A stretch of DNA of 63,319 nucleotides. Origin: a virus. The notes under the pieces are model-generated. The model had not been told where the DNA came from, ran no database searches, and worked only from the letters and a program-made list of their open reading frames with translations. The stretch lies in the IMG/VR virus record IMGVR_UViG_3300044833_000023, positions 1 to 63,319 of that record; one strand, written 5' to 3'. Shown piece after piece: positions 1,946-40,321 of this stretch (within the stretch, counting starts at the first letter, position 1; each line of letters begins with the position of its first letter). The translations under genes were made by a program, and so were the position numbers.

Positions 1946-2223
1946 TTGCCCGCGTACTTCTTGCGGACCTTGCGGTAGATGTTCCGAGACTTGACGAGGC
2001 GCGTGTTCGCCTCATCCAGGGCGACGCCTGTCTTGTCGAGCACGATGCGAGCGTCCTCGCCGTCTTCCCACGTCGGCACCGCGACCGGATCGAGCACTAC
2101 GACCGTTTCAGGTGGCAGCGTGCGCTCAACGACGGCCGGCGGCGGGAGGCTTGCGCATCCACTTGCGATCGTCATCAGTGAGAGCACAGACGCCGTTCGG
2201 GCGAAGTTTGAGAGCCGCTTCAT
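1942..2223 (-). CDS. Rz1: Rz1-like outer-membrane spanin lipoprotein
   Basis: This 93-residue lipoprotein has a lipobox (IASGC) with the acylated cysteine near residue 23, then a proline-rich stretch typical of o-spanins. Its start lies inside the upstream Rz-like gene in another frame, overlapping by about 98 bases. This nested arrangement is diagnostic of Rz/Rz1 pairs. It would span the periplasm with the inner-membrane partner and fuse the envelope membranes at the end of lysis. Confidence 0.75.
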   Translation of the reverse strand: MKRLSNFARTASVLSLMTIASGCASLPPPAVVERTLPPETVVVLDPVAVPTWEDGEDARIVLDKTGVALDEANTRLVKSRNIYRKVRKKYAGK

Positions 2224-2575
2224 AGTCCGTGATCCTTTTCTGATCTGCTACCGCCTGTTGAGCCAACTCGATACGCGCTGCGTTTGCATCGTTTTCAGCA
2301 TCGATCGTCGCATTCAGGTCGACGGTCTTTGCTTCAACCTCAGACTTGAGGTTCTTCATCGCTTCCCGTTCGTCGGAGATGCGGAACCCAACGAGGAAGG
2401 CCATCAGGACGATCATCACGAGCGCCATGAAGCGGGCTTCCGGCACGTAGGGGCCGATAACCGGGAAGTATTTCAACAGTGGGAAATAGCCGACGACCAG
2501 TGCGGCAAGGAGCACGACTGCATCGACGCAGAGTGCTGGATACGAGGTTGCGATAGTCCAGAAGATGTCGGCCAT
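2126..2575 (-). CDS. Rz: Rz-like inner-membrane spanin
   Basis: The protein has 149 residues. Two hydrophobic segments (residues about 12-30 and 45-65) are followed by a long periplasmic coiled coil (EREAMKNLKSEVEAKTVDLN) and a C-terminal CALTDDDRKWM motif of the kind seen in i-spanins. The start at 2575 overlaps the endolysin stop (TAATG); an upstream ATG at 2593 would lie within the endolysin gene. It pairs with the embedded lipoprotein gene. Two membrane segments instead of one is slightly unusual. Confidence 0.75.
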   Translation of the reverse strand: MADIFWTIATSYPALCVDAVVLLAALVVGYFPLLKYFPVIGPYVPEARFMALVMIVLMAFLVGFRISDEREAMKNLKSEVEAKTVDLNATIDAENDANAARIELAQQAVADQKRITDYEAALKLRPNGVCALTDDDRKWMRKPPAAGRR

Positions 2576-3054
2576 TACAAGCCCTCCATGCACAGGTTCC
2601 GTTCTTTTGAACGTCGAATTTCGAGACCGCGCACGACGACGCCGCCCGCCTTGTTCCAGGCGAGCATCGCGTTACACGCCTCGACGTATTCATATCGGTT
2701 CAGATGGCGCGCGGTGCCGGAGTGGCAGAAGCCATGCGTGCCGATGTTGTAGGAAAACGAGATGAACGACGCCTCGGTCTTGGCGCTGATCGGCACGAAG
2801 ATGCACGCCTCGATTTCCTCGGCGTAGCGCGGCAGCTTCTTCGCCAGCATGTCGGCGCATTCTTGCGGCGTGTAGTGGTCGCCGATCTTGACGCCTTCGG
2901 TCTCGCCAAAGCAGACCGTCGGGATGCCGTAGGCCAGCCTGTCGGGCTTGGCGGTGAGCCAGCGGCCCTCGAACTGGGAGACGCATGGCACCGCGAGCGA
3001 GCACGCGAGGACGCCGACGGTCGATAGCCTGCGAACAGCGGGATGCATGGCCAT
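2575..3054 (-). CDS. GH24 phage lysozyme, SAR-like endolysin
   Basis: This 159-residue glycoside hydrolase family 24 muramidase cleaves MurNAc-GlcNAc bonds. The catalytic set E-x8-D-...-T is visible as Glu29 (FEGRW), Asp38 (KPDRL) and Thr46 (IPTVCFGET). The N-terminus (residues 10-26) is a weakly hydrophobic signal-anchor-release-like segment carrying Cys18 and Cys24, with Cys48 beside the active site. That resembles P1 Lyz, where release allows disulphide exchange. The start at 3054 overlaps the holin stop (TAATG). The longer open frame upstream is only an antisense-type extension. Confidence 0.85.
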   Translation of the reverse strand: MAMHPAVRRLSTVGVLACSLAVPCVSQFEGRWLTAKPDRLAYGIPTVCFGETEGVKIGDHYTPQECADMLAKKLPRYAEEIEACIFVPISAKTEASFISFSYNIGTHGFCHSGTARHLNRYEYVEACNAMLAWNKAGGVVVRGLEIRRSKERNLCMEGL

Positions 3055-3341
3055 TATGCGTCCTTCTGCTGTGCGAAGAAGCGGGCAGCGCAGGCGGCCA
3101 CGGTCACGAGGCCGGAGAGCGCGGCGAAAATGCCGGGCGGGATCGGCGGCTTGACCTGCCAGGCGATGGCGACTTGGATCGCCACTTCGAGGCCGGAGAG
3201 GATCGCGGCCAGCACGATGAAGCGCACCGACCAAGATTTGGTCAGTACCCAGTGCCAGTCCTCGCGGAGCCGCGCATTGCCGCGCAAGTCCTCCCAAAGC
3301 AGAGCGAACCCCCTCTTTCCGGGGTCGTCGGTAACGGTCAT
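3054..3341 (-). CDS. Holin-like membrane protein
   Basis: The protein has 95 residues. A charged N-terminal part (WEDLRGNARLREDWHWVLTKSW) is followed by two transmembrane helices (VRFIVLAAILSGLEVAIQVA and PGIFAALSGLVTVAACAARF) and a short charged tail. This matches the DUF7940/holin type seen before endolysins in alphaproteobacterial phages. A GGAGG Shine-Dalgarno stands 5-6 bases before ATG 3341. It lies directly after a terminator, so the lysis cassette may be expressed by readthrough or from its own promoter. Confidence 0.75.
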   Translation of the reverse strand: MTVTDDPGKRGFALLWEDLRGNARLREDWHWVLTKSWSVRFIVLAAILSGLEVAIQVAIAWQVKPPIPPGIFAALSGLVTVAACAARFFAQQKDA

Positions 3342-3405: not shown

Positions 3406-6400
3406 TTAGTGCTCCCACGGGTGTTTCTGTTCGTATCGATGCTTCGCCCGCGCGACCGCATCAGCCTGGTCGTAGTCGATGCCGCGGAACACCTTGGCGA
3501 TCGGGATGTCGGTTGCCTTCGGTGTCTCGCCCTTCATGATCGAGCCTGCGGTATTGCCGACCTCGATGCCGAACCGCTTCTGCGCGCCGAACATCTGATC
3601 GGTAAGCTCGCGAATGTCCTCCGGGTATCGGTCGATCAGCCCGGAGTGATGCGCGTCGCCGCCGGTCCATGAATTCAGGGTCTTCGCGGCGGTCTTCCAA
3701 CCCTCTCCCGTCGGCATATAGTCGCCGCGAGGCTTGCGGCCGGACTCGGAATTCGGCCCCTTCTGGAACATGTCATTGTGGACGGGGTTGCCGAGCCAGT
3801 TCTTGTTCTCGATGACGTGCGCCAGAGGCCGGAGCAGTTCCGGCGTAATCATGTCCATCAGGTTGCCGAACTCGCCGAGCGGCGTGAACGCCATCAGCGT
3901 CGACTTCACCATTTCGGCCGCGTGCTCGCCGACCGTGATCTTGCTCTTGATGGCGCCGATCTTGTCGAGGAACATCCCCGTCAGGTGGTAGCCGAACGTC
4001 ATCGGGAGCGCGTAATTGTAGGCGTTGGGCAGCGCGTACTTCTGCGGGCGTCCCTGCGCGTCGCGCTCGAACGGGTTGAGGAAGATGAAGCCGAGAGCGC
4101 GCTCGAAGTCCGGAACCTTCTCGAAGTATGGATCGCCGTTGTCGTCGCTGCCGCCGAGCAGGTAGTTGTTCAGCGCCAGCGCCACGCCAGCGGCAAACAC
4201 ACCGGCGAACACCCGCCGCATCCGCCCGGATTGCGTCAGCGCGCTTGTCAGCCGCGTGCCGGTCCTAACCGCTGTGTTGTAGAACGGGAAGATCGTTCCC
4301 GCGACACTGGAGACAATCGCCCGCTTTTGATAGTTCACCGTCGCGTTGCGGGCGCGGTAGGCCGCGGCTTGCGGCGTCATGCCCTGATCGCGCGCCTGGG
4401 CGTAGGTCGCGAGCCGGGTCGCGTTGTCCCAGACGTTGAAGATTTCGTCGGTCTTGTCGGCGATGCCCTTGAGTACTCGAAGTGGGTTGAGCCGCGTGCT
4501 GGTGGTGATCTGCTTGAGATCGTCCACAAGCTCGTTCTTGATGGTGTCAATGTCCCGCATCGAGCGGAACGCCATGTTGCCGCCCTGCGCCTTCATCTCG
4601 GCCCAGTATTTGCCAAGCTGGCCCGACGGCCGCCCCTTCTCAAAGTTGGAGATCGCGCGCGAGGCCCGGCCGAACGCAGGGAACGCATCGGCCGTCCACT
4701 TCCATGGGCTATAGGCGCCGGTGTCGCGAAGCTGGTAGGCGTTGAGCGCGCCTTCAACCATGTAGCGGCCGAAGAAATGCCGAGCCGCGAAGTCAGGACT
4801 GTAGTGCGTCCACATGCTCTTGAGCTTGTTGACGCCGAGCAACACCTTGTTCAATCCTGGGAACGACCATGGCGAGTTGCGGTTGATCGACTGCGCCAGC
4901 TTCTCACTCTTGAACAGCATCGTCCGTGGAGCGCCGTTCCGCTTGAAGTTGACGGCGCCCTTGGCCATCGCGCTCGGGCTGGTATCGACCCAGCGAGCGA
5001 GGCCGGTTTTCGGATCGATCGTCTTCTTCGGAGTGCCCTTATTGAGGCTCACGAAGTCGTCGGTATTGATGCCGCCGTGCTTCAGCGTCGCAAGCGTTTC
5101 GGCGATCGAATTGTAGTGCATGTTGCGCTCGCCGCGCTCGATGGTGCGGTATGCCTGATCTATCAGGTGCACCATCGGATTGTCGGCCTTTGACATTCGA
5201 CCGAAGGCGCGCTTGGTCTCCGGGGCCCGGATGCCGATCGGGGAGCCCTTGCCGCCGAAATACTTCTCGTCGTCGATGTCGGCTTCCTCGAAGCCCTTGA
5301 AGGGCACGTAGTCGGGCCCGTTGGCCTTCCATGCGTCGATGGTGGCTTGGCTTTCGAGCCCGTAGTGGACCATCATCTGCCGGTTGAAATCGACGATGTT
5401 GCGGGTCTGCCGCCAGATGTCTTTGTAGGCTTGGCCCTGCGGCCCGCTCTCGAAGGCCCTGATCTTGTCGCGCGCCTCGTTGTTCGAGAAGCCAGAGCCG
5501 CCAGCGATGTTGTTGTCGCGCATCGCGTCATTGAACGGATGGCCGGGCTGATACAGCGGGCCGATGTTGCGGTTGCGCTCCAGCGCGCCCTTTGCCATCA
5601 GGTAGTCGCCCAGATCGGGCAGCGTGATCTCGGCCTTGTTCGCGGTCTCGATCAGCGGCTTGAGCAACCGGTTACGGAAATCGTTCGCCTGGTACGCGAC
5701 CTTGCCCGGGATCAGTTCCTTCTTGACATAGAACTGCATCGCGTCGGGCAGCTTCGACGCCTCGGGGAAGACCTTTTTGGCTTCCTCCGGGGTCAATCCC
5801 AGATACCGCGCCTCGACTTCCTTTTGCAGGAGTTTCTCGCGGTGGCTCAAATCGGAGAACGCTTCGACGAAATCGGCCTTCTTGCTGTCGTTGAACAGGT
5901 TGCCGATCGCCTCGCTGACGCGGCCGTTGGCCTTGGTGCGCTTCTCGAAGATCGACGCCAGCGGCTCGTCATCATGGATCGCCGCTTCCGGCCGCGGAGT
6001 GTCGCCCTTGGCCTTGGCGTATTTGCCGCGGTACGCCTTGTCGAAGATGTCCTCGTAGGTCTCAAAGCCGAGCCCGCGAAGGCCGTTGGCCAGGCGCTTG
6101 ATGGCTTCCCAGAGCCGGTGATACCAGCGGCGCACGCCGACATGCAGACCCTCGCCCTTGGAGCGGTCGGTCGCATAGTCCTCGAAACCGATGGCGCGGA
6201 CTTCCTCGGGATCGAGGCCGTCAGCCTGCTCTTTGCTGTAGCCCCGGGTCTTTCGGATGTAGTCGCGGATGCGGCCGGTCTCGCGCTCCATCAGCGCCCG
6301 CTCCTGCGGGCTCTGCAACTGGTACTCGATCGCGTGATACGCTTCGTGGAACGCGGCGCTGTCGACGCCGTGCAGCAACGCCAGCTTGATGAGATGCCGG

Positions 6401-9400
6401 CTCGGGTAATAGAGACCGCGCGCGCCGGGCGACCTGTCGGCCATGGCGCCCCAGCCGCCAGCGGTGCCTGCCAGCGACATCAGGTCGGGGCTGAATTCGG
6501 CCTTGACGTGATCGCCAACCAGATGTTGCAGGACATCGCGAATGAGGCCCTCGATCTCCGGCTGTTTTTCGGTAGCGGCTTCCGTGATGCTCGCCAGCGG
6601 TTCCTCGACCTTGGTCGGCTTCGGCGCCTCGGCCTTGAGCGTGAACACGGCGCCGAGTTCTTGCAGGCGCTTGATGGCTCCAAGGATATTGCCGTCGGTG
6701 ACGTCCGTAACCATGCGCCCGCTGCGCGAGATGAAGTCGCCAGCGGCCAGATCGATCAGCGGCTTGTCGAGGAAGAAGACGCCGCCCGTCTTTTTCGCCT
6801 TGTCGGTCGCGATGACGTATTCTTTGCTCCATCGCCCCTCCCTGCGGATCGAAACCGTTTGGCCTTTTGACCAGATCGTCTCGGTCGGGTTCCTGTCGAG
6901 CCAATCCCTGATCTCGAACGGGTCGTGGACAACGCGGCCCTTGTCGACCGCGTGCTTCTCAAGATCGAAGTCCCTCGACGTCAGGATGCCCTGCCGGACA
7001 CCGCCCTTGTCGTCGGTGTAGTTGATGATGTTGCCCTTGCGCCCGAGCCAGTCATAGGCCGCCAAGAGATTGCCGGTCGCGATGTAGCGTTCCTCGCGGG
7101 CGTCCGACTGCATGTGCTTGTAGCGGTCGAGCGTCTGCTCGGCGCTTTCGATCCAGCGTTGCAGCGGGACCACTTCCACGTCGAGCGCGCTTTCGCTGTC
7201 GGCCTTGCCGTCGGCATGAATGCGCGAGAACGGCAGCGTCATGTGTCGGCTGGCGTCCGCGATAGCGAATTCGGCCTTCCACGACGAGAGCGCCAGCGGG
7301 TTCTTGGTGACGCCCTTCTGCTCGACCTTGGTGATGATGCCGGTCAGGTTGCCGTCGGCCGTCTTCAGCGTGACGCGCTGACCGATACGGACCAGCTTGT
7401 GAACGGCGCTCCAACGGTCCTTGATGGCGTCAAACTTGCTCTTTTCCTTCGCCTGTTTCTCGGCGTCCGGCATCCCTTCGAGGATCGGCTTGATGTACTC
7501 GGCGAACTCCTTGATCGCGCGCTGGCGCTCGGCGATCTCGTTCGCGGCCGATGCTTTCCCGAGACCCTGATAGGTATCGCTCGCCTGGTCGAGCAGCCGG
7601 GCCAAGTCCTTGATCTCGGCTTTTTCGTCGGGCGCCGCCTGTGCGGTGCGGTCGCCGATCGCCTCGATGACCTTCCCCATGACCTCGGCCGGCGTGTACG
7701 GCTTGCCCAGGCGCGCGACGGAGACCTTCTCGACGTTGACCGGCGCGGCGAAGCGCGAATTGCTGTCGTTCTTCCTGCCCATAACCTCGGTGGTCTCCAA
7801 CGACTTCGCCTTGAGGTCGAAGGTCTTGGCTTCCATCGGGTTCGTGCCAGCAGCCGACAACTGCTTCATCATGTCTTCGTAGGCGCTCTCAAGCTCCTGA
7901 TAGAGGGCTTCCTGTTCGTGCAACGGTAGCAGCGGGATGCGGCCGGTCAGCTTCCGCATCGCGTCGGGGATGATGGCCCGGCCGCTCTCGGTGAACTTGA
8001 TCGGCATCGCCAGCCGCGGGTTCATCTCGAAGTTTTCCGAGAGGTAGTTGGCCGCTACGATGTCGCCGTATTCGTTGATGAAGTCGGGCACGTCCTTGGC
8101 GGTGACGGCGCTGGTCCGCGACGCCGTGGTGTTGGCATTGAGCGAGGCCATCTTCTTCGCGAGCACCGCGGCCGGGCGCTTCTCGGCCGGGATGTCGGCC
8201 ACGAATTGGGTGTAGCGGGGCAACACGACCTGTCCGGTGCGGTTGATGCGGCCGAGCAACTGCATGTGGGTGTCGACGTTGCCTTCCGGCTGCACGATCA
8301 TCATGTGCCGGACCGACTGATCGTTGAAGTCACGGCTGGCGTGCGCGGACAGGCCGGTCGATCCGGATTGGTTGATGATGAGCGCGTGATGGCCGCCGTT
8401 CACCGGCTTGGTATTGAACTTGCGCAGGGTCTCGTTTTTGCCTGCGGTCGTCAGGTCTTTGCCGGGGCGCTTGCGAAGTACCGGGTCGCCCTTGCCGGAA
8501 TAATCGAGGATCAGGCCGCGTCCGGTGATCTCGCCGACGCTGTAGCCTTCCTTTTTCAGCCGCCAGATCAGATGGTCGATCGGAGAGACCGGCATCTCGG
8601 ACAGGTTCATCGAGCCGATGATCTCTTTGGCGCGCTCGTAGGACGCGACGCCCGCAGGGCCGAGTTCCTCGTCGGTCAGGCGCCGACGTTCGGCCTTCTC
8701 GCCCTTCTTCATGAAGGGCTTTTTGATGGTTATCATCCGCGTGCGCTCAAGGTACTTGTGCAGCACGTCGGAGAAGTCCGCGGGCATCTCGTCACCGACC
8801 TTGACGCCGATCGTGTCCGCGTAGTCCTTGAGGAAGCTCTCCATCGTGTTCGCGACGGTCAGGACCGGCTTCTCGCCGCGCTTGATCGCCTCGATCGCCG
8901 CTTGCGCGGCCGGCTCAACCTTCATCGCCAGCAGCATCTGGTTGATGACGTTGTGCATGATCGACGTGAAGTTGGTGGACTGTGCGCCAGAGTCGCCGGT
9001 CGCCCCGTCGTAGCCGGTGGTGCCGCCCTCGCCCATCAGGTCGGCGTTGACGTTCTCCATGGCCGCTTTGACGGCGGCGCTGAAGTCCTGAATGGCCGAT
9101 AGGCCGCTGGAAATCGTATTGTAGTTCTCGCGGTCCACGCCGACGAGCGGCGTGTTGTACTCGATGCCGGCGAACGATCGCTCGCGGCGGATGTACTGCC
9201 CGTCCTCGGCGAGCATGGTCGCGACAGCCTGTTGCATCGGTACGCCGCCGCGCGCGATAGCCTCGCCCAAGTCCTTCGGGTCCGCGACCGCCATCTTCAT
9301 GTTGGTGGCGGAGTAGAGGTCCATCACGTCCGGGCGCTTGGCGTAGGTCGCCGACGAATAGAACACGCCGTTGGCGTTCTGGATCAGTTCGCGCGCGAAG

Positions 9401-12400
9401 CCGGAGCGGTTGGCCGGCTCGTTGGCCGCCTTCTTCCGCCCAACCTCGGTGCCGCCCGCGTTGTGGCTCTCGTCCATGATGACGACGGAGTGTGGCGCGA
9501 TGGCTTTGAGGAAGGCGCGGCGGCCGGTGTCCTCGCCCTTGACCGTCTGCATCTGCGAATAGTTGGTGAACACCATATCGAAGTGCTTCTGGAAGGCTTC
9601 CTTGCCGGAAACGCTGCCGAGCACGCGATCATGCTCTTTCAGTTGCCCGTTCTTCAGCGTGGCGCCGCCCTCTTCGAGCGGCATGTCGAGATCGGCGTTG
9701 GTGGCGAGGATGCGCGGCGGCTCGTCGGTCATGCCGATCGCCTTCATGTCGCGGTAGATGTCGGCGTAGAGGTTGGGGCTCATCGTCACAAAGACCGGGA
9801 TGCGGTCGTTCTTGATCGCCCACTTGATGATCGCGGCATTGACGCGGCCCTTGCCGATGCCGGTCTGGTCTCCAATGATGAAGCCGTTGCCGTTCTTGAT
9901 GTTGTCGATCGCGAGGCCCAGCGCGTCGATCTGCTCGGCACCGAAGTATTTCGGAAGATCGGCCTTCTTGTAGTCGAGTTCCTTGGCGACAAAATCATCG
10001 ATCGGCCCGACACGGCGCTCAAGATCGTCGAGCGAGGCGTCTTGCGGACGCTTGAGGTTGGCGGGGACGAGCGTGTCGAGGTTCTCGATCTTGCTCTTGG
10101 GGGTGTTGCGGACCTGACCCTCGGTCTCGGTCGCGGTGCCGGCCTTCGCGCGCTCCCGATCTGGGCTCTCGTCCTTGGTCTGCTCTTTCTCTCCGAGCTT
10201 GATCTCGCCTGACGTCAAGTCTTGGATGAACCGCTTGAGGTACTGCGCCATGTCCTGCATGGCTTCCTTGCCGAACTTCAGCGTGTCGCGCATGTGCTCG
10301 ACCATGCGGCGGATCAGTTCGCCGATGTCGCCCCAGAAGCTGCGGTAGTGCTCGGCCGCCGTCTTGAAGAACGGCTTGGCCTTGGCGTAGGTGTCCTCGT
10401 CGAAGGCGGGGCCGGCGCCGTGGGTCTTGCCGCCGCCGAACAGTTGATAGAGGCCGGAGAAGGCGGCATCGGTCGCGGCCGACATGTTCTCGCCGGCGGA
10501 TTTGACGTTCTCTTTGGTGGTGCGCGGGCCGCCCGATGTGCGCGGGCCAGCAGCCGGCTTGCTAACGGGCTCGGCGTAGGCGTCCTTGATCGCGCCGCTG
10601 ATGAGTGCGTCGAGGTCTAATCCAGATGATGATCCGATGGCAGGAGCAGCACTATCAGATCGATCGGCCGGGTTATGTTCTCCGGCTCCAAGTGCATCTT
10701 GATCGCCGCCTCCGCCAGCACCGGCATTCCCGGCTCCTGAAACAGGCTGTTGCACCACGCCCGCGGGGTTTTCCCCTCCGGCTGCGGCTCGATCCCCACC
10801 CTGTCCAGCATCTCCAGTATCTCCGATGCCTGATCCCGCCAATCCGGGTCGCTCGACATCATCACTGACATGCTGTCCGCCAGCCGTTCCAGCATCGCTT
10901 CGGTTCGGTTGTCCATCGAGCAGCCCTCCCAGGCCGGTCCAATCGTTGAAGATGCGCGGTACATCGACCGCTGGCAAGGCCCGGGAGGACTTCCCGCGGC
11001 CGTTTATGACGATCACATCAACCGGCCAGCCGGCGCCCTGACGCTCATAGAGGTCGCCTGAGACCGTGAAATGATCGGTGACGTCGTACTTGTCGTACAG
11101 CGTCTTGAAGAATTCGCGCTTGGCCTTGCCGTTGTAGGCATCCGACCGGGCTTCCCGGGTCGTCGCCATCCTGTTGACGCCGCCGAGGATCAGCACGGCC
11201 TTGCCGTTGTCCTTCATGGCGGCCAGGGCGCGCAGCGCGATGGCGTGATCGATCTCGTGGGTCTGATAGTTGGGCTGTATGTCGCCCATGTCGAACACCT
11301 TGGAGACCACGCCGTACTGCGTTGACTCCCGCACCGCGCCGAACGGCGGGTTGGCGATTACGACGTCGTAGGTCGGATTTTGGTGGCGCTCCAATGCGTC
11401 TTTGTTGCTGACGTTGAAGCCCTGCTCTTTCAGGTTGCCTGCGCGATCCGGGTTGATCTCGTTGGCGATCGTGAGCTTGGGGTCGGCGCCGATCAGGAGC
11501 GCGCCGTTGCCGGCGGTCGGCTCATAGACCGTTGTGTCCTTCGTGATGCCCGCGAGTTCGGAGGCGATATAGCCCAGCGGTACCGGCGTCGAATATGCCT
11601 GGTCGCGAACCGACGTCGACGTGCGCGTGCCGAGACGGGGCTGGCGGCCGTACAGGCCCACCAGCGCGTCGTAGATTTCCTTCGGCGTCCCGCCAGCGTC
11701 CACGATCCCGCGCGCGACCTTGACGATGCCGAATTCGATGGCTTCCTCGGTGGCCTTCGGGTCTCCGGGGAAACCCGCGTCGTGGGCAAACTTGCGCGCC
11801 GCGAGGATGTTCGTGAAGTCGAGGCCGTCGGTGAAGTGCTTGGCGAAGGCGTCGGAGAGCGACTGCTTGCTTGCCTCATCGACCGCGATCATCTCGTGGA
11901 TCGGCATCGGCTGCGGTCGCGGAACCTCAACGCGCGTGCGGGTGACGATCGGCTCCGGCTCGCCTTCGACGGCTTGAACGCGCGTGTTGATGCCGTGCTT
12001 GCCCTCGCCCGTGGTCAGGGCCTTGAGGACGCGCTCGAAGTCCGCGTTGATGGTCTTGCGTTCCTCGCCGACCGGGTACGGGTTGCCCTTGAAGCCTGCC
12101 GCGTAGCGCGTCGGCTCGACGCCCTGCACGAGGTACTGTGACGTGAAGCCTTCCTCTTGGATTTTGTCGAAGACGAAGGCTTCGCCCGCGCGTGCGAGCA
12201 ACTCAAGCGGCCGGCGCCAGTAGTCGCCCTTGCCGGAGAGCTTAGTCGCCTCCTTCAGGTAGTCCGTCGGAACCACCTTGCGCGCGATCGTGTCCGCCTT
12301 CTCGGCGTTCGTGATGTAGTGATCCCGGATGCCGATATTTTCCTCGGCCTTCTTCAGGCCCATGGACGACCCGCCCTTGCGCATCCGGTCCTTGATCCGG

Positions 12401-15400
12401 TTGGCGTGGTCGATCCAGGCTTGCCGCTGGCCCTTGTCATGTTCGAGCTTCTTGGCGTGGTCGGCGATGGCCTGTTCGTCATCCTGCTCTTTGTTGAACA
12501 GGTCGTGCATCAGCTTGTTGACGCCGACGCGGAGGCGCGGCTTCAGATGCGTGTTGGTTTCGTTGAACGCCGAGGCGTCGCTCATGGAGCCCAAGAAGCG
12601 CCCGCGCCACGCCTTCGCGGTGTTCTTCGGCGTGACGCGGCCGTTTGAAATCCATTTCGCGCCGCCCCCATAGGGGTTCGACGTTGCGAATTCGCCGAGG
12701 TAATGGTCGAGCGCGTGTATCCACTCGTGCGCCAGCGAGCCCGCGCCGTTGATCTTCGTCATGTTGATGACGGTGCGGTCAGCCTCGTAGTGCGCGGCGC
12801 CCGCGCCCTTGCCGCCCTTGCCGCGGGAGCCGAAGCCGATGGCGAGCGTGCCGTCGAGCGACATCGCCTTGGCGGGAAGATTGAGGATACGCGCGAGGTC
12901 GTGCAGCGCGTCAAAGGCGAGGTTGAGCACCTTCTGGCGTTCGTCGTTTGCCGCCCAGTTGCCGAACTCGACGCCACGGAAGCCGAAGGTGTCCTTGAAA
13001 TCGTCGGAGCCGACGTCGCGATCCTTGCGATAGTCCGGGCCGTCGCGGTTGATGGCGTCGAGATGCGGGCGGTTCGGCTCCTGTTCCTCAGAGCCGCCTT
13101 TGCTGATCTTGGCGTAGGCTTCCTTGGCTGCGGCTTCCGCGAGTTCGCGGGTGCCGAACTCTCCGACCTTTCCGCCGTTCTTGCGGCGAACGATCCACAC
13201 CTTCTCTTTGACCGCTTTCTTTTCGTAGTCGTATGGAGTGTAGGGATCGATCTCGAACAGCCGCTGCCACGGCTCCATGTTCGGGAAGCCTTTGGCGACG
13301 GCGCCTTCGGCGGTGCGAACGTCGGCGCCCATCACCGTGAGGGGATTGTTGCGGCTACCGCGCTGCCTAATCGCGGCGAGGACCGAATAACTGTTGGTGC
13401 CGAGCGCGGCGGAGACGGCCTGACTGACCTTCTTCATCTCATCGACGGTCTTCACCTTGGCGAATTCGTCGCGGATGGCTTTCAGGGCATCGAAGTAGTT
13501 GTCGCGATCTTCTTTGCTGACCGTATCGTTGTAGCGGTTGGTCGGCTTGACGGCGATGCGGTCGTAGACGCGCTTCATCAGCGCAGCCGCCACGGGCGCG
13601 ACGCCGCTATCGACGACGGCCGCATAATCCGGGCGCGGCCAGATGTTGTGCTTGGTGACGTTGGTATCAAGCTCGCCGCCGGTCATGCCGTCGAGTGCGG
13701 CCTTGGTCAGGCCGCCGGTCCATTGGTCCTTGCGCGCGCCGCCGATCTTCTCGCCAACGTCCTCGATCTTCTGCTTTTCCGGCTCGGGGACGGGCTCATC
13801 GACGGACGGCTTTTTTTCTTCTTCGGCCTTCTGGCGCCGCTTCGTCTCGCGGTCATGCAGTTGTAGCGCAGCGGTCAGAACGTCAACTTCCTGATCGCTC
13901 TCGGTTTTGCCGCGTTCCAAGATGTCCCGAGCCGAAGTAGCCATGGGGCTTGTGCGGTGCCATTTGTGCTCTTTGTCTTTGAGCGCAAATGTGAGGGCGG
14001 CTTTCTCGTTCGGCGTGAGGTTCGGGTCGCCTTCCTCTACAACGGTGTCGTTGGCATCTTCGGCGGCAGGCTGGTGTTCAGTGGCGTCGCCGGTTTTGTC
14101 CCCAGCGGTTTTGTTCCCGCGGGCGGCTGGCTTAGCGGTGCCGCCGCCTGCGGTTGAGCCATCGCCGGGCTTGCCTGTTTCGCCTTGTGCGCCATTTTCG
14201 CCGCCGCTCGCAGCGACCGGAGTTTCTGTTGCACTACCGGCGCCGACTTGCCCAGATGCGGGGCGTTCTTGCTCAGAAGGTGTGCCGCTGCCAGATGCCC
14301 CTTGGCTTCCGGGCTGTAGTAGTGTGTTGACTTCTTCGCCATAGGCTTGTTCCGCCTGCTGATGAGTGAGGAATTTCTGGCCGACGAGGTTCTCGATGAC
14401 GGCGTGGCCGAACGCAACGTGGGGCAGCATCCCCTCGTTCTCTGCGAGGATTTCCGCCGCGCGCGCGGTGTCTACCGGCAGAACGTGGTGATAGTCCTCG
14501 CCGAGCGCCGCCTCGATCTGGGCGTGATGCTCTTTCGTCGGCTCCGCGGTGACGGGCGCGGGCGGCATTACCTCGGCGCGGCCGATGGCGCCGATCGGCT
14601 GCGAGTGGTCGCCGTTGCGGAGCCAATCCTTGAATTCGTCCGGCGCCAGCGCCTTCATACCGCCGATGCGATCAGCGCCGCCGTCGGTGTACGAGTTCGC
14701 GTAGGCGTGAAGTGCCTCGATCGGGTTGCGGAACCCGGTCATGATCTTGTGTTCGTCGAATTCGCCCTTACCGCCAGCGTGGTGCTGGTCGATGACGAAG
14801 ACGTGCTGGCTGTCCGGATGCGCGCCGATGAAGACGTCGAGCGGTTCGCCGTCGGCGCCCGTCGTACCCTTGATGCGGCCGTACGCAACCGGCATCTTGA
14901 CTTCCCACGGCGTACCGTCTTGCTCGGTGCCCTTGCGGGTGTCGCCGACGCCGGTCTCCAGGCTGATCGAGTTCTTGCCGGTCAGCCCGAGATGCTCGAT
15001 CTCGGCGTGACCGTGCTTGAAGTTCGTTGCCGCGGCCTGCGGGTCGGTCGGGTCTTTCGCGACGACTTCGCTCGCCTTGAGCACATCGTCCGCAGAGCGG
15101 ATGTTGATGGGATTGTCGCGGGTGCCTGTGCCGGTCGTTTCGGCCGTGGGCTGCGGTACCGGCTTTTCGGCCGTATTTTGCTGGGCTTCTTGCTCTGGCG
15201 GTCGCTCGCTCGCCGATCCGCGCGCCATCGCCTCTTGAAACCGGCGCCGTCGCTCGGCCGGGGTCATGACCGCGATGTGAGCGTCTGTCCAGCCGGCGCG
15301 CTTCAGGCCCTCGCGCTCGGTCCGCTCGGTCGCGCTCTCGCCTTGCGGATTGAGCGGTTCTTCCTTGTTGTTGACGGGCGCTTCGCCTTGGCTGGTGTGC

Positions 15401-16977
15401 TTGTTGACCGCTGCGACCAATTCCTCGTGCGACATCGCGGCGATGTCTTCGTCCGAATGACCGAAATAGCGCAGGATGCGCTCCAGCTTCGTGCGAACGT
15501 CGGTCTGCTCGTTGGTCTTCTGGCGTTCGCGCTTCTGGCGTTGCTGGCCTTGACCAGTGTTGCCGTTGCCGGCGCCGCCGCCGGGATTGCTGCCGCCAGT
15601 ATCGGAGCCAGTCCCCGTTGACCCCGCGCCAGTGTCCGGATTGATGTCGTCGTGCGGGGGCGGGGGCGGCGGGAGGTCCGGCGGAGTGTCCGGGGTGATG
15701 TCCGGCGGAGTGTCCGGCGTGGGCGGAACGTCGCCCGGCTTCTTTCGGCCTTCCATGTAGGCATGGCCCGCGCCGAGCAATACGCCAGTGATGAGCGACG
15801 CGATGACGCGCTTGATGTCGGGGCTGTATTCGGCCTTGGGGTCGTAATACTTCTGCGCTATCTGGTCGCCGAGATACTCTTGCGCCTCTACGACGGCCGC
15901 CATGGTGCCGGCGAATGCCGCGGTCTTCCGGAACGCGGCCGAGGCAACGTACTTGTTGAGGGTTTCTGCCGCCCAGCCGCTCAATGCAGGGGCGAATTTC
16001 TTGACGGGTGTGAGTATGACGCCAAGAGGGACAGCGCCGAGCGCGCCACTAACGAGCGCCGACATACCGGCTGCCTTAGCCGCGTCTTCATCGCTTGCGT
16101 TCTTGGCTTTCGCCGCCTCAAAGGTGTCGCCTGCGGATTGCGCGGCCATGGTGGCGGCGCCGAGGGTGATACCAAGTGCGGGATTGATTGCGCCGACGGC
16201 CACGGGCGCCACCATGCCGCCAACCGCAGGGCCAAGATACTTACCGCCGAAGCTCTCCTTTTCAGCCGGCGACATCGGGATCGTGTCTTCGGCTGATTTC
16301 TTGATCGCAGCGCCGCCCTTATAAAGCGGGCGCTCCGTTACCGGAACAGACGGCTGGGCGTTGAAGGTGCCAAACTTCTGGCGGAGACCTTCCATTTCGG
16401 CCTGTGCGTCTGCACCGCCAGAGATGCGCTGCAAGGCCGCGTTGTAGTCCATCTGCAATCCGCGATCGGTGATCGTGGTCAGCGCCTGCTTCATCAGTTT
16501 GGCTTTGCCGCCCGCATCCAGCGTGCCAGCCGTCCCAAGTTGATCGATCAGCGCGGATGCTTCCGGCTTCTCGGGGGTGTTGTCCTTGATCGCGCCAGCT
16601 TGCAGGATCGCGCCGCCGCTCTTGATGAAGCCCTGCGCGGCGCCCTTGCCTGCTGCAACGGTCTGGTCGATCGGACCGAGTGTCGGGACCGGCGCTTCCG
16701 GCGGCTTCACTACCTCGCCGAACGATGACGGTTTCGGGCCAGTGACGACGGGCTCGCCGTAGGATGACGGGGGTTTTTCCGCTACGGGCTCGACGGGCTT
16801 CTCGTCGATGTGCCGCGTCTTGCGGTCCATCCGGCGCATGAGCGTGTCGGACAAGCGGCCGGGATCGGCAACTCCGCTATCGGAGATGTCGCCTGGGAAG
16901 GTCTGTCGTGCGAGATCGTCTACGCCCTGACCGGGATCATAAGGCGCGTCTGCCCCGAAGGCATCGGCGAGAGCCAT
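3406..16977 (-). CDS. Giant polyvalent protein: zincins, N6-adenine methylase, SNH-like helicase, LPD38-like end
   Basis: One unbroken frame of 4523 residues. In order: PSSYGEP repeats (about 70-90); glycine-rich hydrophobic segments (248-320, 389-408) like internal/ejection proteins; a proline-rich linker (419-446); an inorganic-pyrophosphatase-like domain (about 660-795); an LPD1-like domain (about 1325-1450) with the zincin motif HEWIHALDH (His1417); an N6-adenine methyltransferase with EPTAGNGAL (Glu1819) and NPPFG (Asn1876); a glycine-rich linker; a strawberry-notch-type SF2 helicase (about 2290-2960) with GDQTGIGKGR (2369), DESH (Asp2502) and QLLGRINRTGQ (2906); a second zincin HEAYH (His3544); and an LPD38-like C-terminus (about 4200 on) with a hydrophobic helix near 4257. 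This is the polyvalent/DarB-like antirestriction architecture. It is probably packaged and injected to protect incoming DNA. Domain boundaries are by eye. Confidence 0.88.
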   Translation of the reverse strand: MALADAFGADAPYDPGQGVDDLARQTFPGDISDSGVADPGRLSDTLMRRMDRKTRHIDEKPVEPVAEKPPSSYGEPVVTGPKPSSFGEVVKPPEAPVPTLGPIDQTVAAGKGAAQGFIKSGGAILQAGAIKDNTPEKPEASALIDQLGTAGTLDAGGKAKLMKQALTTITDRGLQMDYNAALQRISGGADAQAEMEGLRQKFGTFNAQPSVPVTERPLYKGGAAIKKSAEDTIPMSPAEKESFGGKYLGPAVGGMVAPVAVGAINPALGITLGAATMAAQSAGDTFEAAKAKNASDEDAAKAAGMSALVSGALGAVPLGVILTPVKKFAPALSGWAAETLNKYVASAAFRKTAAFAGTMAAVVEAQEYLGDQIAQKYYDPKAEYSPDIKRVIASLITGVLLGAGHAYMEGRKKPGDVPPTPDTPPDITPDTPPDLPPPPPPHDDINPDTGAGSTGTGSDTGGSNPGGGAGNGNTGQGQQRQKRERQKTNEQTDVRTKLERILRYFGHSDEDIAAMSHEELVAAVNKHTSQGEAPVNNKEEPLNPQGESATERTEREGLKRAGWTDAHIAVMTPAERRRRFQEAMARGSASERPPEQEAQQNTAEKPVPQPTAETTGTGTRDNPINIRSADDVLKASEVVAKDPTDPQAAATNFKHGHAEIEHLGLTGKNSISLETGVGDTRKGTEQDGTPWEVKMPVAYGRIKGTTGADGEPLDVFIGAHPDSQHVFVIDQHHAGGKGEFDEHKIMTGFRNPIEALHAYANSYTDGGADRIGGMKALAPDEFKDWLRNGDHSQPIGAIGRAEVMPPAPVTAEPTKEHHAQIEAALGEDYHHVLPVDTARAAEILAENEGMLPHVAFGHAVIENLVGQKFLTHQQAEQAYGEEVNTLLQPGSQGASGSGTPSEQERPASGQVGAGSATETPVAASGGENGAQGETGKPGDGSTAGGGTAKPAARGNKTAGDKTGDATEHQPAAEDANDTVVEEGDPNLTPNEKAALTFALKDKEHKWHRTSPMATSARDILERGKTESDQEVDVLTAALQLHDRETKRRQKAEEEKKPSVDEPVPEPEKQKIEDVGEKIGGARKDQWTGGLTKAALDGMTGGELDTNVTKHNIWPRPDYAAVVDSGVAPVAAALMKRVYDRIAVKPTNRYNDTVSKEDRDNYFDALKAIRDEFAKVKTVDEMKKVSQAVSAALGTNSYSVLAAIRQRGSRNNPLTVMGADVRTAEGAVAKGFPNMEPWQRLFEIDPYTPYDYEKKAVKEKVWIVRRKNGGKVGEFGTRELAEAAAKEAYAKISKGGSEEQEPNRPHLDAINRDGPDYRKDRDVGSDDFKDTFGFRGVEFGNWAANDERQKVLNLAFDALHDLARILNLPAKAMSLDGTLAIGFGSRGKGGKGAGAAHYEADRTVINMTKINGAGSLAHEWIHALDHYLGEFATSNPYGGGAKWISNGRVTPKNTAKAWRGRFLGSMSDASAFNETNTHLKPRLRVGVNKLMHDLFNKEQDDEQAIADHAKKLEHDKGQRQAWIDHANRIKDRMRKGGSSMGLKKAEENIGIRDHYITNAEKADTIARKVVPTDYLKEATKLSGKGDYWRRPLELLARAGEAFVFDKIQEEGFTSQYLVQGVEPTRYAAGFKGNPYPVGEERKTINADFERVLKALTTGEGKHGINTRVQAVEGEPEPIVTRTRVEVPRPQPMPIHEMIAVDEASKQSLSDAFAKHFTDGLDFTNILAARKFAHDAGFPGDPKATEEAIEFGIVKVARGIVDAGGTPKEIYDALVGLYGRQPRLGTRTSTSVRDQAYSTPVPLGYIASELAGITKDTTVYEPTAGNGALLIGADPKLTIANEINPDRAGNLKEQGFNVSNKDALERHQNPTYDVVIANPPFGAVRESTQYGVVSKVFDMGDIQPNYQTHEIDHAIALRALAAMKDNGKAVLILGGVNRMATTREARSDAYNGKAKREFFKTLYDKYDVTDHFTVSGDLYERQGAGWPVDVIVINGRGKSSRALPAVDVPRIFNDWTGLGGLLDGQPNRSDAGTAGGQHVSDDVERPGLAGSGIGDTGDAGQGGDRAAAGGENPAGVVQQPVSGAGNAGAGGGGDQDALGAGEHNPADRSDSAAPAIGSSSGLDLDALISGAIKDAYAEPVSKPAAGPRTSGGPRTTKENVKSAGENMSAATDAAFSGLYQLFGGGKTHGAGPAFDEDTYAKAKPFFKTAAEHYRSFWGDIGELIRRMVEHMRDTLKFGKEAMQDMAQYLKRFIQDLTSGEIKLGEKEQTKDESPDRERAKAGTATETEGQVRNTPKSKIENLDTLVPANLKRPQDASLDDLERRVGPIDDFVAKELDYKKADLPKYFGAEQIDALGLAIDNIKNGNGFIIGDQTGIGKGRVNAAIIKWAIKNDRIPVFVTMSPNLYADIYRDMKAIGMTDEPPRILATNADLDMPLEEGGATLKNGQLKEHDRVLGSVSGKEAFQKHFDMVFTNYSQMQTVKGEDTGRRAFLKAIAPHSVVIMDESHNAGGTEVGRKKAANEPANRSGFARELIQNANGVFYSSATYAKRPDVMDLYSATNMKMAVADPKDLGEAIARGGVPMQQAVATMLAEDGQYIRRERSFAGIEYNTPLVGVDRENYNTISSGLSAIQDFSAAVKAAMENVNADLMGEGGTTGYDGATGDSGAQSTNFTSIMHNVINQMLLAMKVEPAAQAAIEAIKRGEKPVLTVANTMESFLKDYADTIGVKVGDEMPADFSDVLHKYLERTRMITIKKPFMKKGEKAERRRLTDEELGPAGVASYERAKEIIGSMNLSEMPVSPIDHLIWRLKKEGYSVGEITGRGLILDYSGKGDPVLRKRPGKDLTTAGKNETLRKFNTKPVNGGHHALIINQSGSTGLSAHASRDFNDQSVRHMMIVQPEGNVDTHMQLLGRINRTGQVVLPRYTQFVADIPAEKRPAAVLAKKMASLNANTTASRTSAVTAKDVPDFINEYGDIVAANYLSENFEMNPRLAMPIKFTESGRAIIPDAMRKLTGRIPLLPLHEQEALYQELESAYEDMMKQLSAAGTNPMEAKTFDLKAKSLETTEVMGRKNDSNSRFAAPVNVEKVSVARLGKPYTPAEVMGKVIEAIGDRTAQAAPDEKAEIKDLARLLDQASDTYQGLGKASAANEIAERQRAIKEFAEYIKPILEGMPDAEKQAKEKSKFDAIKDRWSAVHKLVRIGQRVTLKTADGNLTGIITKVEQKGVTKNPLALSSWKAEFAIADASRHMTLPFSRIHADGKADSESALDVEVVPLQRWIESAEQTLDRYKHMQSDAREERYIATGNLLAAYDWLGRKGNIINYTDDKGGVRQGILTSRDFDLEKHAVDKGRVVHDPFEIRDWLDRNPTETIWSKGQTVSIRREGRWSKEYVIATDKAKKTGGVFFLDKPLIDLAAGDFISRSGRMVTDVTDGNILGAIKRLQELGAVFTLKAEAPKPTKVEEPLASITEAATEKQPEIEGLIRDVLQHLVGDHVKAEFSPDLMSLAGTAGGWGAMADRSPGARGLYYPSRHLIKLALLHGVDSAAFHEAYHAIEYQLQSPQERALMERETGRIRDYIRKTRGYSKEQADGLDPEEVRAIGFEDYATDRSKGEGLHVGVRRWYHRLWEAIKRLANGLRGLGFETYEDIFDKAYRGKYAKAKGDTPRPEAAIHDDEPLASIFEKRTKANGRVSEAIGNLFNDSKKADFVEAFSDLSHREKLLQKEVEARYLGLTPEEAKKVFPEASKLPDAMQFYVKKELIPGKVAYQANDFRNRLLKPLIETANKAEITLPDLGDYLMAKGALERNRNIGPLYQPGHPFNDAMRDNNIAGGSGFSNNEARDKIRAFESGPQGQAYKDIWRQTRNIVDFNRQMMVHYGLESQATIDAWKANGPDYVPFKGFEEADIDDEKYFGGKGSPIGIRAPETKRAFGRMSKADNPMVHLIDQAYRTIERGERNMHYNSIAETLATLKHGGINTDDFVSLNKGTPKKTIDPKTGLARWVDTSPSAMAKGAVNFKRNGAPRTMLFKSEKLAQSINRNSPWSFPGLNKVLLGVNKLKSMWTHYSPDFAARHFFGRYMVEGALNAYQLRDTGAYSPWKWTADAFPAFGRASRAISNFEKGRPSGQLGKYWAEMKAQGGNMAFRSMRDIDTIKNELVDDLKQITTSTRLNPLRVLKGIADKTDEIFNVWDNATRLATYAQARDQGMTPQAAAYRARNATVNYQKRAIVSSVAGTIFPFYNTAVRTGTRLTSALTQSGRMRRVFAGVFAAGVALALNNYLLGGSDDNGDPYFEKVPDFERALGFIFLNPFERDAQGRPQKYALPNAYNYALPMTFGYHLTGMFLDKIGAIKSKITVGEHAAEMVKSTLMAFTPLGEFGNLMDMITPELLRPLAHVIENKNWLGNPVHNDMFQKGPNSESGRKPRGDYMPTGEGWKTAAKTLNSWTGGDAHHSGLIDRYPEDIRELTDQMFGAQKRFGIEVGNTAGSIMKGETPKATDIPIAKVFRGIDYDQADAVARAKHRYEQKHPWEH

Positions 16978-28099: not shown

Positions 28100-29518
28100 T
28101 TAGTCGGTTAGCTCCAGCATCGCCGTGATGTCGGCGATGTCGGCTTCGTCCTGGCGCTGACGTTCGTCTTCGTCATCGAGGTGCCGCAGCATGTGCTCAA
28201 TGTCGGTCGCGTCCATTGCTTCGTGGATGCTGGCTTCGATGCCGCGCAGATCGCGCTCGGCGTATTCAACGTGGTCGATCGGCGACGTTTCGCGCGGGGC
28301 GAGGAACGTCTCGATCCGGAGCGAAGGCGGCAGAACGATCTTTGGCTTGACCGGCTCCGGCTTGCGCGGGCGCTTTCCGACCGGCTCAAGGCCGCGCTTG
28401 CGACCGCCGCCGCCCGAGATGACCGTTTGGAGCAAACCAGCAACGCCGATGCCGGCGGCCTGTGCCAGCGTGACGGAGACGTTGATGCGATTTGGACCGA
28501 GCCAGTTGGCAACGCCGACGCCAGCCACTCCGAAAATCGCCACGTTCTGTGACGGAACCTGTCCGACCATACCGGCAACGCCGATGCCGACCGCGGGAGC
28601 CAGCACAACCGTGACCGTGTAACTCGACGGTCCGCGCGCAAGACCGACGCCAACGGCGCCGGAGATGACCGCGCCCGGCTGCGGTGTGACCGATCGCGCG
28701 ATGCCAACGCCTGCCGCTTGCGTGATCGGCGGGTTCGACGAGAGCGCGATGGTCGGCGTGCCGACGATGCCTATGCCCGCCGCTTGCGGGATGCCAACAG
28801 AGACTGCCGCGACAACCGCGCCGGTAACGCCAACGCCAGCGGCTTGCGCCAGTACCGCCGCGGGATTGGCGACAACCGATCGCGCAAGACCCGTGCCGGA
28901 GACGCCCGCAAAGGTGAACCCGAAAACCTGTCCTGACAGCGTGCCGACGATGCCGGTTCCCGCCGCCTGCGAGACTGAAACTGAGACCGTTTGGCTCGCA
29001 ACAAGACCTCGCGCAACACCTGCACCTGCGGCCTGACTGATCGCCGCCGCAGGATTGGCGACCAGTCCCCTCGCAAGTCCAGTTCCAATTGCCTGCGCCG
29101 CGTTGCCTCCAGGCGCTGCCGTGGCAGCGTGAGCAACACCCGTTCCTGATGCCTGCGCCAGCGTGGCCGTGACGGCCGGCGTGGGGCCGCGAGCGACGCC
29201 CGTACCCGAGACGCCCGTGAGAAGACCGGGAGCGATTGCCTTTGCGACGCCGGTGCCGATCGCGCTTGCGAGCGTGACGACCTGTACGCTCGGTGTCAGA
29301 ACTCCAGCAACGCCGACACCAGCGGCTTGCGTCGGCGCCCCCGCGTCGATGACGGTTAGACCTCGGGCAACTCCCGCGCCTGCCGCTTGCCCCGTAGTTT
29401 TGGACGGAGAGGGTGTGACCGATCGCGCGATGCCAACGCCTGCCGCTTGCGTGGCCTGCACGCCAGCATTGGCGCTGATCTGCCCGAGGGCAAACCTGCC
29501 GAATGCGTCAAAGAACAT
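28100..29518 (-). CDS. QAAGxGxA repeat protein
   Basis: The protein has 472 residues. Residues about 20-370 are some 17 imperfect repeats of 19-24 residues built on QAAGVGVAR plus a variable beta-like stretch ending in Pro/Val/Thr. The C-terminal 100 residues are different: a basic patch (RKRGLEPVGKRPRKPEPVKP) and acidic helices (DEDERQRQDEADIADITAML). It is encoded directly after the tailspike. The regular repeats suggest a beta-solenoid or glycine-zipper fibre. DNA repeats (for example 28683-28724 and 29412-29453, 42 identical bases) allow expansion and contraction. No known family is recognised. Confidence 0.7.
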   Translation of the reverse strand: MFFDAFGRFALGQISANAGVQATQAAGVGIARSVTPSPSKTTGQAAGAGVARGLTVIDAGAPTQAAGVGVAGVLTPSVQVVTLASAIGTGVAKAIAPGLLTGVSGTGVARGPTPAVTATLAQASGTGVAHAATAAPGGNAAQAIGTGLARGLVANPAAAISQAAGAGVARGLVASQTVSVSVSQAAGTGIVGTLSGQVFGFTFAGVSGTGLARSVVANPAAVLAQAAGVGVTGAVVAAVSVGIPQAAGIGIVGTPTIALSSNPPITQAAGVGIARSVTPQPGAVISGAVGVGLARGPSSYTVTVVLAPAVGIGVAGMVGQVPSQNVAIFGVAGVGVANWLGPNRINVSVTLAQAAGIGVAGLLQTVISGGGGRKRGLEPVGKRPRKPEPVKPKIVLPPSLRIETFLAPRETSPIDHVEYAERDLRGIEASIHEAMDATDIEHMLRHLDDEDERQRQDEADIADITAMLELTD

Positions 29519-38999: not shown

Positions 39000-39599
39000 T
39001 CAATCGACCATTCCCGCGGACTTCTTGAAACGATCTATCGCATCACGCACCGGGGTCGGCTTGTTCACCGTGCCCTCAATGACGCGGGGATCGCCGTTCT
39101 GCGGGGCCTGATCCGTTCCGCCGACGTGCTTGACTTGCGACGCCTCAGTAATCGCGTGTAGCAATCTAGCAACGTCGCCCGGAGACTGGAGGGTCAACGG
39201 CCCGATCATCGCGGCGAGTTCTTCGCCCACAACGATCCCGGCAATCAACCCAACCTGCTGCATCCTCGCCTGATTTTCGGCAACGGTGCAGAGGTACAAC
39301 TCGTCTATTCGCGCCAGCCGGCGCTCGACCATGGTGGTCACGTCTTGCATGGCGGCCTCGACCACTTCCTTCGTGGGAGGCGTCTTCGGTTTCTTGGGGG
39401 CCGTTTTCTTTGTGACCACCAGCGACCTCTCGGCCTTCTTTACGCTCGGCTCGGCCCATTTGTTCTTCTTGAGCCGTTGGACGGCCTTGTAGTTTATGGC
39501 GAAGCCCTTCGTCACCAAGATCGCAACGACCTTGGGCGCGCTCGGGTTGACGGTGGCCTCCCACGTCGCCCTGACCAATGCTGCCGATGGCTTCTTCAT
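39000..39599 (-). CDS. Terminase small subunit-like DNA-binding protein
   Basis: The protein has 199 residues. The basic N-terminus has a helix-turn-helix-like sequence (VVAILVTKGFAINYKAVQRL) followed by a Lys/Pro-rich linker and a helical oligomerisation region (VEAAMQDVTTMVERRLARID). It lies immediately before terL and ends one base before the terL GTG. The role is assigned by position and build. Confidence 0.7.
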   Translation of the reverse strand: MKKPSAALVRATWEATVNPSAPKVVAILVTKGFAINYKAVQRLKKNKWAEPSVKKAERSLVVTKKTAPKKPKTPPTKEVVEAAMQDVTTMVERRLARIDELYLCTVAENQARMQQVGLIAGIVVGEELAAMIGPLTLQSPGDVARLLHAITEASQVKHVGGTDQAPQNGDPRVIEGTVNKPTPVRDAIDRFKKSAGMVD

Positions 39600-40321
39600 G
39601 TGAGGCCGGCCGGGATCGTCGCCGGGCCTGCGCTCGCATCGGCCTGTAGAATAGGTGCCGCAGCCGGTGGAGCGTCCCTTCTCACACCGGACTGCGGCGG
39701 TGCCTGCTCAGTTACGGGCGGCACACTCGCGGGCGGGGACGTCGCTGCTGTCTGAATTGGTTCGCCGTAGGATGATGGCGGCTTGGTGTCGGTCTCGACC
39801 GGCTCGCCGTAGCTGCTCGGTAGCACCTGCGGTCTGGTATCGAAGGTCTTGGCGCGCTTCTCGACATCGGCCATGACGGACCGATTGAGTGCGCCGACGG
39901 TGCCAGCCTTCGCAAAGTGCGGGTTTTGCGCCATCTCGTTCGGTGTGAACACGGCGTCGACGGGCGTCTGCGGGTCCATGCCCATCATCCTCGCAGCGCG
40001 CGCGCCGCCGAAATGGTGACCGGCGTATGCTTCAGCGTCGGTCGGTTGACGGCCGAGAACGGTCGCCATCTCGCCCTTTACGTCCTTGATGAAGCCGGTC
40101 CAAGCCTTCGCCTGGGCGTATGGATCGGCACTGTTGCCGGCGCCGTAGGCCATCCGGTGATCGCCGCGCATCTGAAACACACCAGCGATGGTCCTGCTCG
40201 CGCGCGCCTGCGGATTGAAGGCGCTCTCACGTTGGGCAATCGCCAGCGCGTACTTCGGGTCTACGCCGCCCTCACGGGCCGCCTTGACGATGGCGGCCTT
40301 GACGGCTTCGACGTCGGTCAC
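39596..40321 (-). CDS. SLT-type lytic transglycosylase, virion-associated
   Basis: The protein has 241 residues. Residues 1-130 carry the soluble lytic transglycosylase fold: GVDPKYALAIAQRESAFNPQ with candidate catalytic Glu32, then SRTIAGVFQM and AYAGHHFGGARA. The C-terminal tail contains two SSYGEP motifs, which recur near the N-terminus of the giant polyvalent protein. It probably opens peptidoglycan during DNA ejection. It overlaps the small terminase gene (ATGA), so it heads the late operon. Confidence 0.82.
   Translation of the reverse strand: MTDVEAVKAAIVKAAREGGVDPKYALAIAQRESAFNPQARASRTIAGVFQMRGDHRMAYGAGNSADPYAQAKAWTGFIKDVKGEMATVLGRQPTDAEAYAGHHFGGARAARMMGMDPQTPVDAVFTPNEMAQNPHFAKAGTVGALNRSVMADVEKRAKTFDTRPQVLPSSYGEPVETDTKPPSSYGEPIQTAATSPPASVPPVTEQAPPQSGVRRDAPPAAAPILQADASAGPATIPAGLT

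Follow-up and report, generated by a model that had tools for sequence, protein, structure and literature searches.

The window analysed here, a stretch of 63,319 bases, carries on its minus strand a single gene for a protein of 4,523 aa, which is likely to be a polyvalent virion protein of the Bcep22/DarB-like kind that would be loaded into the head, enter the host with the DNA and protect it there. The new finding is that the relatives of this protein keep both ends and swap the protective middle. The class itself, its Strawberry-notch members, and the size, position and virion association of such proteins are already published (PMC5512222; Bcep22/JC1).

The first and last 127 bases of the window are identical, and the window was therefore taken as a complete genome with a circular map, about 63.2 kb in size (63,192 bp of unique sequence). 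Because an integrase gene is present at 62239-63243, the phage is probably temperate. No phage was matched when 25 kb of the window were searched by megablast, and the search for prophages in genomes with the head protein returned a sole match of 29%, in a Rhodobacterales MAG. The minus strand from 40321 down to 3406 forms a single late block containing, in order, the transglycosylase, TerL, portal, major head protein, tail-fibre-like and other structural genes, two genes for low-complexity proteins and the giant gene. The genes for TerL, portal and major head protein thus share one block with the giant gene, in keeping with the polyvalent class, which belongs to phages with portal-terminase packaging and is encoded near virion genes. 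The products of both low-complexity genes are probable internal virion proteins. A tRNA-Thr (TGT; 41009-41083, minus strand) is located directly upstream of the late block. In addition, the minus strand encodes at 28100-29518 a 472-aa Ala/Gly/Val-rich protein with repeats like QAAGVGIARGxTP, the gene of which contains a 42-bp exact repeat (copies at 28683-28724 and 29412-29453); its homologues, of varying length, occupy the same location in several members of the lineage described below.

The giant ORF spans 13,572 bp or 21.5% of the unique sequence, in agreement with the earlier note, which had put it at about a fifth of the genome, and the chance of an equally long stop-free run at a G+C content of 62.5% was computed as ln P ~ -131. 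The coordinates and the 4523 residues given in that note were right and the ORF is initiated by ATG, although the minus strand had been missing from its description. The gene had also been assigned to the virion gene block, and it was indeed found at the end of the late virion operon, translationally coupled to the preceding gene by a TAATG overlap and followed by the lysis cassette, in an order kept in the lineage. The motifs named earlier were recovered at their residues, namely HEWIH at 1417, HEAYH at 3544, EPTAG at 1819 and NPPF at 1876, along with the helicase motifs GDQTGIGKGR at 2369, DESH at 2502 and QLLGRINRTGQ at 2906. Several enzymatic domains of unrelated activity are thus combined in a single polypeptide (InPase, methylase-like, Strawberry-notch (SBNO) helicase and HExxH domains); the "maintenance" domains that the note had listed with them were not found.

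Table 1. Features of the giant protein and of its gene neighbourhood in the window.
Feature	Residues	Position	Strand	Match or remark
Giant polyvalent protein gene	4,523 aa	3406..16977	-	ATG start overlaps upstream stop
Hydrophobic segment 1	251-277	16147..16227	-	Within lineage-conserved N-terminal region
Hydrophobic segment 2	302-326	16000..16074	-	
InPase, polyvalent-type inorganic pyrophosphatase	647-786	14620..15039	-	Pfam PF18823, 1.4e-35
HEWIH zincin-like domain, CLCA_X-like	1310-1433	12679..13050	-	NCBIfam NF041907, 5.7e-42, below that model's whole-length cut-off
LPD1	1583-1656	12010..12231	-	Pfam PF18796, 4e-16, above curated cut-off
N6-adenine methylase-like domain	1770-2010	10948..11670	-	YST, EPTAGNG, NPPFG
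Strawberry-notch-type SF2 helicase/translocase	2349-3046	7840..9933	-	Pfam AAA_34 and Helicase_C_4
Second HExxH region	HEAYH at 3544-3548	5938..6540	-	
C-terminal module, ending in LPD38	3690-4523	3409..5910	-	
LPD38	4284-4493	3499..4128	-	Pfam PF18857, 7.8e-20, above curated cut-off
A/P/Q-rich protein, coupled gene upstream of giant	380 aa	16977..18119	-	Conserved in lineage
A/T/N/Q-rich protein, second gene upstream of giant	381 aa	18134..19279	-	Conserved in lineage
Virion structural protein, lineage marker	586 aa	19944..21704	-	phrog_3287
Lysis cassette directly downstream of giant		2126..3341	-	DUF7940, phage lysozyme, Rz-like
Separate transglycosylase gene		39596..40321	-	phrog_4067; phrog_342 "internal virion protein with endolysin domain"

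The N-terminal hydrophobic segments noticed earlier are present, but they lie inside the protein and not at its extreme N-terminus, and the description of this region as ejection-protein-like found little in its favour because the hydrophobicity of the segments differs among relatives and the peaks are not strictly conserved. A scan with the hydrophobic region aligned to Ruegeria 45A6 returned nothing, and homologues were reached later through the head protein. The pyrophosphatase-like domain was borne out by the Pfam InPase model at a score well above the cut-off, and its acidic pattern DGxxLDVF...DQ...FDEHK aligned with the relatives and was kept where covered, with few exceptions. An SLT transglycosylase was absent from the giant protein in the Pfam search.

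The HEWIH domain is marked by HEWxHxLD, which was invariant in 15 aligned sequences and includes the aspartate three residues past HExxH that is known for the phage-type metallopeptidase of Iyer et al. (PMC5512222). LPD1 comes after this domain in most relatives, and AlphaFold2 placed the HEWIH region together with LPD1 in one unit (pLDDT 77.9, pTM 0.78); the model and the co-occurrence together suggest that the two probably form a single unit. LPD1 may even make up the latter half of the HEWIH metallopeptidase (12010-13050, minus strand) rather than a separate domain, and a conserved E-x-x-[AS]-R-A-x-E helix in it could be the source of the third zinc ligand. When the model was searched with Foldseek against PDB, no match was obtained at E<=0.001 and no solved zincin was found, and so the zincin fold is proposed at the level of motif and profile. 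The same search against BFVD matched only other large phage polyvalent proteins. The second HExxH is also found in L108, L111 and Ruegeria 45A6 and is absent in BS-TP4. HEIDH at residue 1907, considered as a third zincin, was rejected because it falls within the methylase, and its occurrence there is most likely a coincidence. Sequence searches of PDB with the helicase, methylase and zincin pieces gave nothing significant.

For the N6-adenine methylase, the motifs claimed earlier are in place and conserved in relatives, but the Pfam N6_Mtase match at 1850-1931 reached 19.8 bits, 0.6 bits short of the cut-off of 20.4. The assignment as a putative methylase draws mainly on the alignment with relatives, where motif I and NPPF are conserved; YST, motif I of the [DE]xTxGNG type and NPPF were kept in them where covered, with few exceptions. 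The helicase had been called Strawberry-notch-type, and both SBNO models agreed well above their cut-offs (AAA_34 and Helicase_C_4 at 2364-3046; 5e-19 and 1e-20), with Walker A, DE[SA]H and motif VI kept in nearly all covering relatives. The window protein therefore contains the dyad of adenine methylase and SF2 ATPase that is present in the P1 DarB family. Between the two domains is an unnamed helical piece of about 90 aa (residues 2165-2258; ~10204-10485, minus strand), which recurs in L107, L112 and L113, where the helicase and methylase stand in the opposite order. An N4-type virion RNA polymerase was also considered and was rejected, as no polymerase family appeared in the Pfam or PHROG matches.

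The LPD38-like end that had been proposed was confirmed by the Pfam match. The module was C-terminal in all relatives listed, and the distance from its start to the protein end was 896-1,011 aa in 36 of the 37 (707 aa in the exception). With the C-terminal half as a single-sequence query the viral scan returned no relative, and a two-sequence alignment used as query recovered them. The profile of the module, built with no Lessievirus sequence, matched the giants DC1 gp67 and BcepMigl gp69 over ~875 aa with 366 bits, while shuffles scored below 0 bits. The AlphaFold2 model of this module was helix-rich and of low confidence (pLDDT 51.7), for which reason it was left out of the fold search, and no fold-level mechanism was drawn from it.

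The selection acting on the gene was estimated with two close relatives, L053 and L054; the values are approximate as several dS were near or above 1. The dN/dS was ~0.12-0.28 in InPase (~0.13 with L053), HEWIH domain, LPD1 and methylase (0.19 with L054), and mostly ~0.3-0.6 in the stretches separating the domains. These values suggest that each of the domains is kept in working order.

A profile of the 586-aa virion protein found 42 IMG/VR loci, 39 of them at >=46% identity, and these define a lineage of about 39 contigs that has the virion block in common with the window. Most far-reaching contigs show the same virion gene order and the same two low-complexity genes followed by a giant ORF, which, in the contigs reaching far enough, begins with the conserved N-terminal region and InPase. 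L088, L089, L092 and L093, with extra inserts, and L099, with a split frame, depart from this order in detail; in L099 (9945-18015) the N-terminal region and InPase are in two overlapping frames, by which the giant gene is split. An in-frame TAG was seen in the methylase-helicase linker of L054 (position 13079) and L076 (contig IMGVR_UViG_3300028800_000335), with homology continuing in frame beyond it, and it could be a nonsense mutation, a reassigned or read-through stop, or an assembly error. Such interruptions and the swapping of middle segments between relatives, which is described below, would fit a gene in partial decay, or one patched together from mobile fragments, with little function. 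We regard this as very improbable for the window gene, the frame of which is intact across 4,523 codons with intact motifs and low dN/dS in its domains.

The giants of the lineage measured 3,287-5,621 aa among the several larger members examined. In BLASTP against the window protein, their N-terminal and InPase pieces were 31-68% identical, and the C-terminal 780-1,100 aa were 27-40% identical in L107, L108, L111 and L113. The middle gave almost no match except for the ~90-aa helical piece and a weak methylase match. By Pfam and motifs, the middle contains a methylase followed by an SNF2 ATPase in L108 and L111, a helicase followed by a methylase in L107, L112 and L113, a methylase with no helicase detected in L110, and an ADP-ribosyltransferase in L109 (record G004; ART-PolyVal, 8e-21). 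The window SBNO helicase, when used as query, was absent from all 12 lineage or HEWIH-related records, and its only matches were in the records L006 and L014, which are more distant. At the other end, L109 and L110 have a different, non-LPD38 C-terminus, in which they are 82% identical to each other, and therefore LPD38 is not indispensable.

Thus, the N-terminal region and InPase are kept, as is the zincin-LPD38 C-terminus in most members. We tentatively read the giant gene as a delivery chassis with an exchangeable payload, a possibility to which we give somewhat less than even weight. In such a gene, the DNA-protection module in the middle would be replaced whole by another that is equivalent to it without being homologous (methylase-SBNO, DarB-type methylase-SNF2, a helicase followed by a methylase, a methylase with no helicase detected, or ADP-ribosyltransferase), and the exchange would probably track host restriction or defence. 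LPD38 would then act as a tag for loading or ejection in general. That payloads are exchanged within a single lineage while the ends stay constant was not spelled out in the open literature searched, and it agrees with the view of Iyer et al. that domains recombine (PMC5512222).

The middle of L108 was 40-41% identical to DC1 gp67 residues 1553-3278 (E = 0 and 5e-108), whereas the ends of the same protein were 38-50% identical to the window as against 23% to DC1. Taken together, the DarB-type methylase-SNF2 segments of L108 and L111 were 31-41% identical to Burkholderia phage DC1. P1 DarB gave three collinear matches with the same L108 segment (E 1e-22, 1e-15 and 1e-12). Within one lineage, therefore, this slot is filled by a DarB-type dyad in some members and by the methylase-SBNO dyad in the window. 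P1 DarB is described in the literature as an antirestriction protein, which protects DNA in cis against type I restriction and carries an N-terminal capsid targeting signal. Because the DarB-type module fills this slot in L108 and L111, an antirestriction role is suggested for the window dyad, and the slot equivalence is the strongest sequence-based argument, and the best available evidence, for this dyad doing the job of DarB. P1 DarB (2,255 aa) has an adenine methylase followed by an SF2 ATPase, as in the window, and differs in lacking the LPD38 module (-4.9 bits) and in having an SNF2-type helicase in place of the Strawberry-notch type. BLASTP of the window protein against P1 DarB gave no match, the lineage methylase profile matched it weakly (21 bits) and the helicase profile gave no match. 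The window helicase is not homologous to that of DarB at the family level.

The earlier note had treated the family concept as established, and this holds for the polyvalent proteins (PMC5512222) as well as for a virion protein of ~4,600 aa of the Bcep22 type. The polyvalent class was described by Iyer et al. in 2017, with few members having a Strawberry-notch ATPase (PMC5512222). Their proteins combine InPase, MPTase-like, N6A methylase, SF2 ATPase, LPD1 and LPD38 in one polypeptide as the window protein does, and differ, as judged by their description, in the exact domain set and order (PMC5512222). The Bcep22-like (Lessievirus) giants, Bcep22 gp75, JC1 gp69, DC1 gp67 and BcepMigl gp69, are of similar length (4,515-4,658 aa), make up ~22% of the genome and are encoded by the last gene of the virion block ahead of the lysis genes, with the same order of methylase, SF2 ATPase and LPD38 and a homologous C-terminal 875 aa. 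They differ in having an N-terminal SLT transglycosylase, an SNF2-type helicase and LPD3 or PBECR1, and, unlike the window protein, they have no Pfam InPase or LPD1 match; the other genes of these phages are essentially unrelated to those of the window. JC1 gp69 (4,515 aa), placed in this group by its published similarity to Bcep22 gp75, was detected by mass spectrometry of CsCl-purified virions with 51 unique peptides and 15.6% coverage, and its score was second, behind the capsid protein alone (PMC9144972). This virion detection is that of JC1, and presence in the particle is predicted for the window protein. A third group, formed by BS-TP4 gp3 (5,391 aa) and IMG/VR giants such as L006 (3,889 aa) and L034 (6,196 aa), of which BS-TP4 gp3 and L034 are larger than the window protein, has the backbone of InPase, methylase, SBNO helicase and LPD38-type C-terminus; these giants lack the HEWIH-LPD1 unit, and the structural genes of their phages are unlike those of the window. 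The Bacteroides phage BS-TP4 gp3 (XPO95421.1; L003 1511-17686), annotated as hypothetical, differs further by an additional ddrB-ParB domain; its other domains are InPase, methylase-like, SBNO helicase and LPD38.

The giant protein is probably packed into the virus particle, as judged from its genomic context and family. It was also considered whether it could be an unpackaged intracellular late or replication protein that modifies the phage DNA prior to packaging, since a methylase and an SF2 translocase could work on replicating DNA and methylase-helicase pairs occur outside polyvalent proteins too (PMC5512222). The gene is however at the end of the late virion operon, distant from the replication genes and coupled to probable virion genes, and its product shares the C-terminal module with a virion-detected family, all of which make this alternative quite improbable.

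The earlier suggestion that one protein both accompanies the DNA and shields it fits the evidence for the window protein. In this preferred reading, the giant protein would be made late, alongside the head and tail proteins, and loaded into the head, for which, or for ejection, the C-terminal LPD38 module and the N-terminal region may be the constant parts; both ends of the window protein are conserved and either may serve loading. It would enter the new host with the phage DNA, on which the methylase-SBNO translocase pair would act in cis by methylation and/or remodelling so that type I-like restriction fails, a step proposed from P1 DarB and the slot equivalence. More speculatively, the HExxH domains might cleave the polyprotein after entry, or a host target, and the InPase might clear pyrophosphate or a nucleotide signal. 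Such InPase and HExxH-processing roles were proposed for the class by Iyer et al. (PMC5512222).

The protein could also be present in the virion mainly as an ejection or internal-core protein aiding the passage of DNA across the envelope, with the enzymatic domains as secondary cargo. The hydrophobic segments and the helix-rich predicted C-terminus would suit such a role, as would the two low-complexity A/Q/N/P-rich genes upstream of the giant, and comparable low-complexity genes are found in T7- and P22-type ejection gene sets. The N-terminal SLT transglycosylase of the Lessievirus giants also speaks for it. Against it, the window protein is without this domain and a transglycosylase is encoded elsewhere in the window. 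Furthermore, the catalytic motifs show strong conservation, purifying selection is strongest in the enzymatic domains, and P1 DarB, the homologue of the L108 middle, is an antirestriction protein. A mainly ejection role is thus considered unlikely, and the reading as a packaged protein that protects the entering DNA is preferred.

In the light of these findings, Strawberry-notch would be a second translocase type in the slot that is held by DarB-type modules in closely related phages, and the sharing of this slot provides grounds, which can be tested, for assigning SBNO-methylase pairs to antirestriction. The lineage provides a natural series for telling the virion-loading part of such giants from their payload, and this knowledge would be useful for understanding phage counter-defence and for protein delivery by phage particles.
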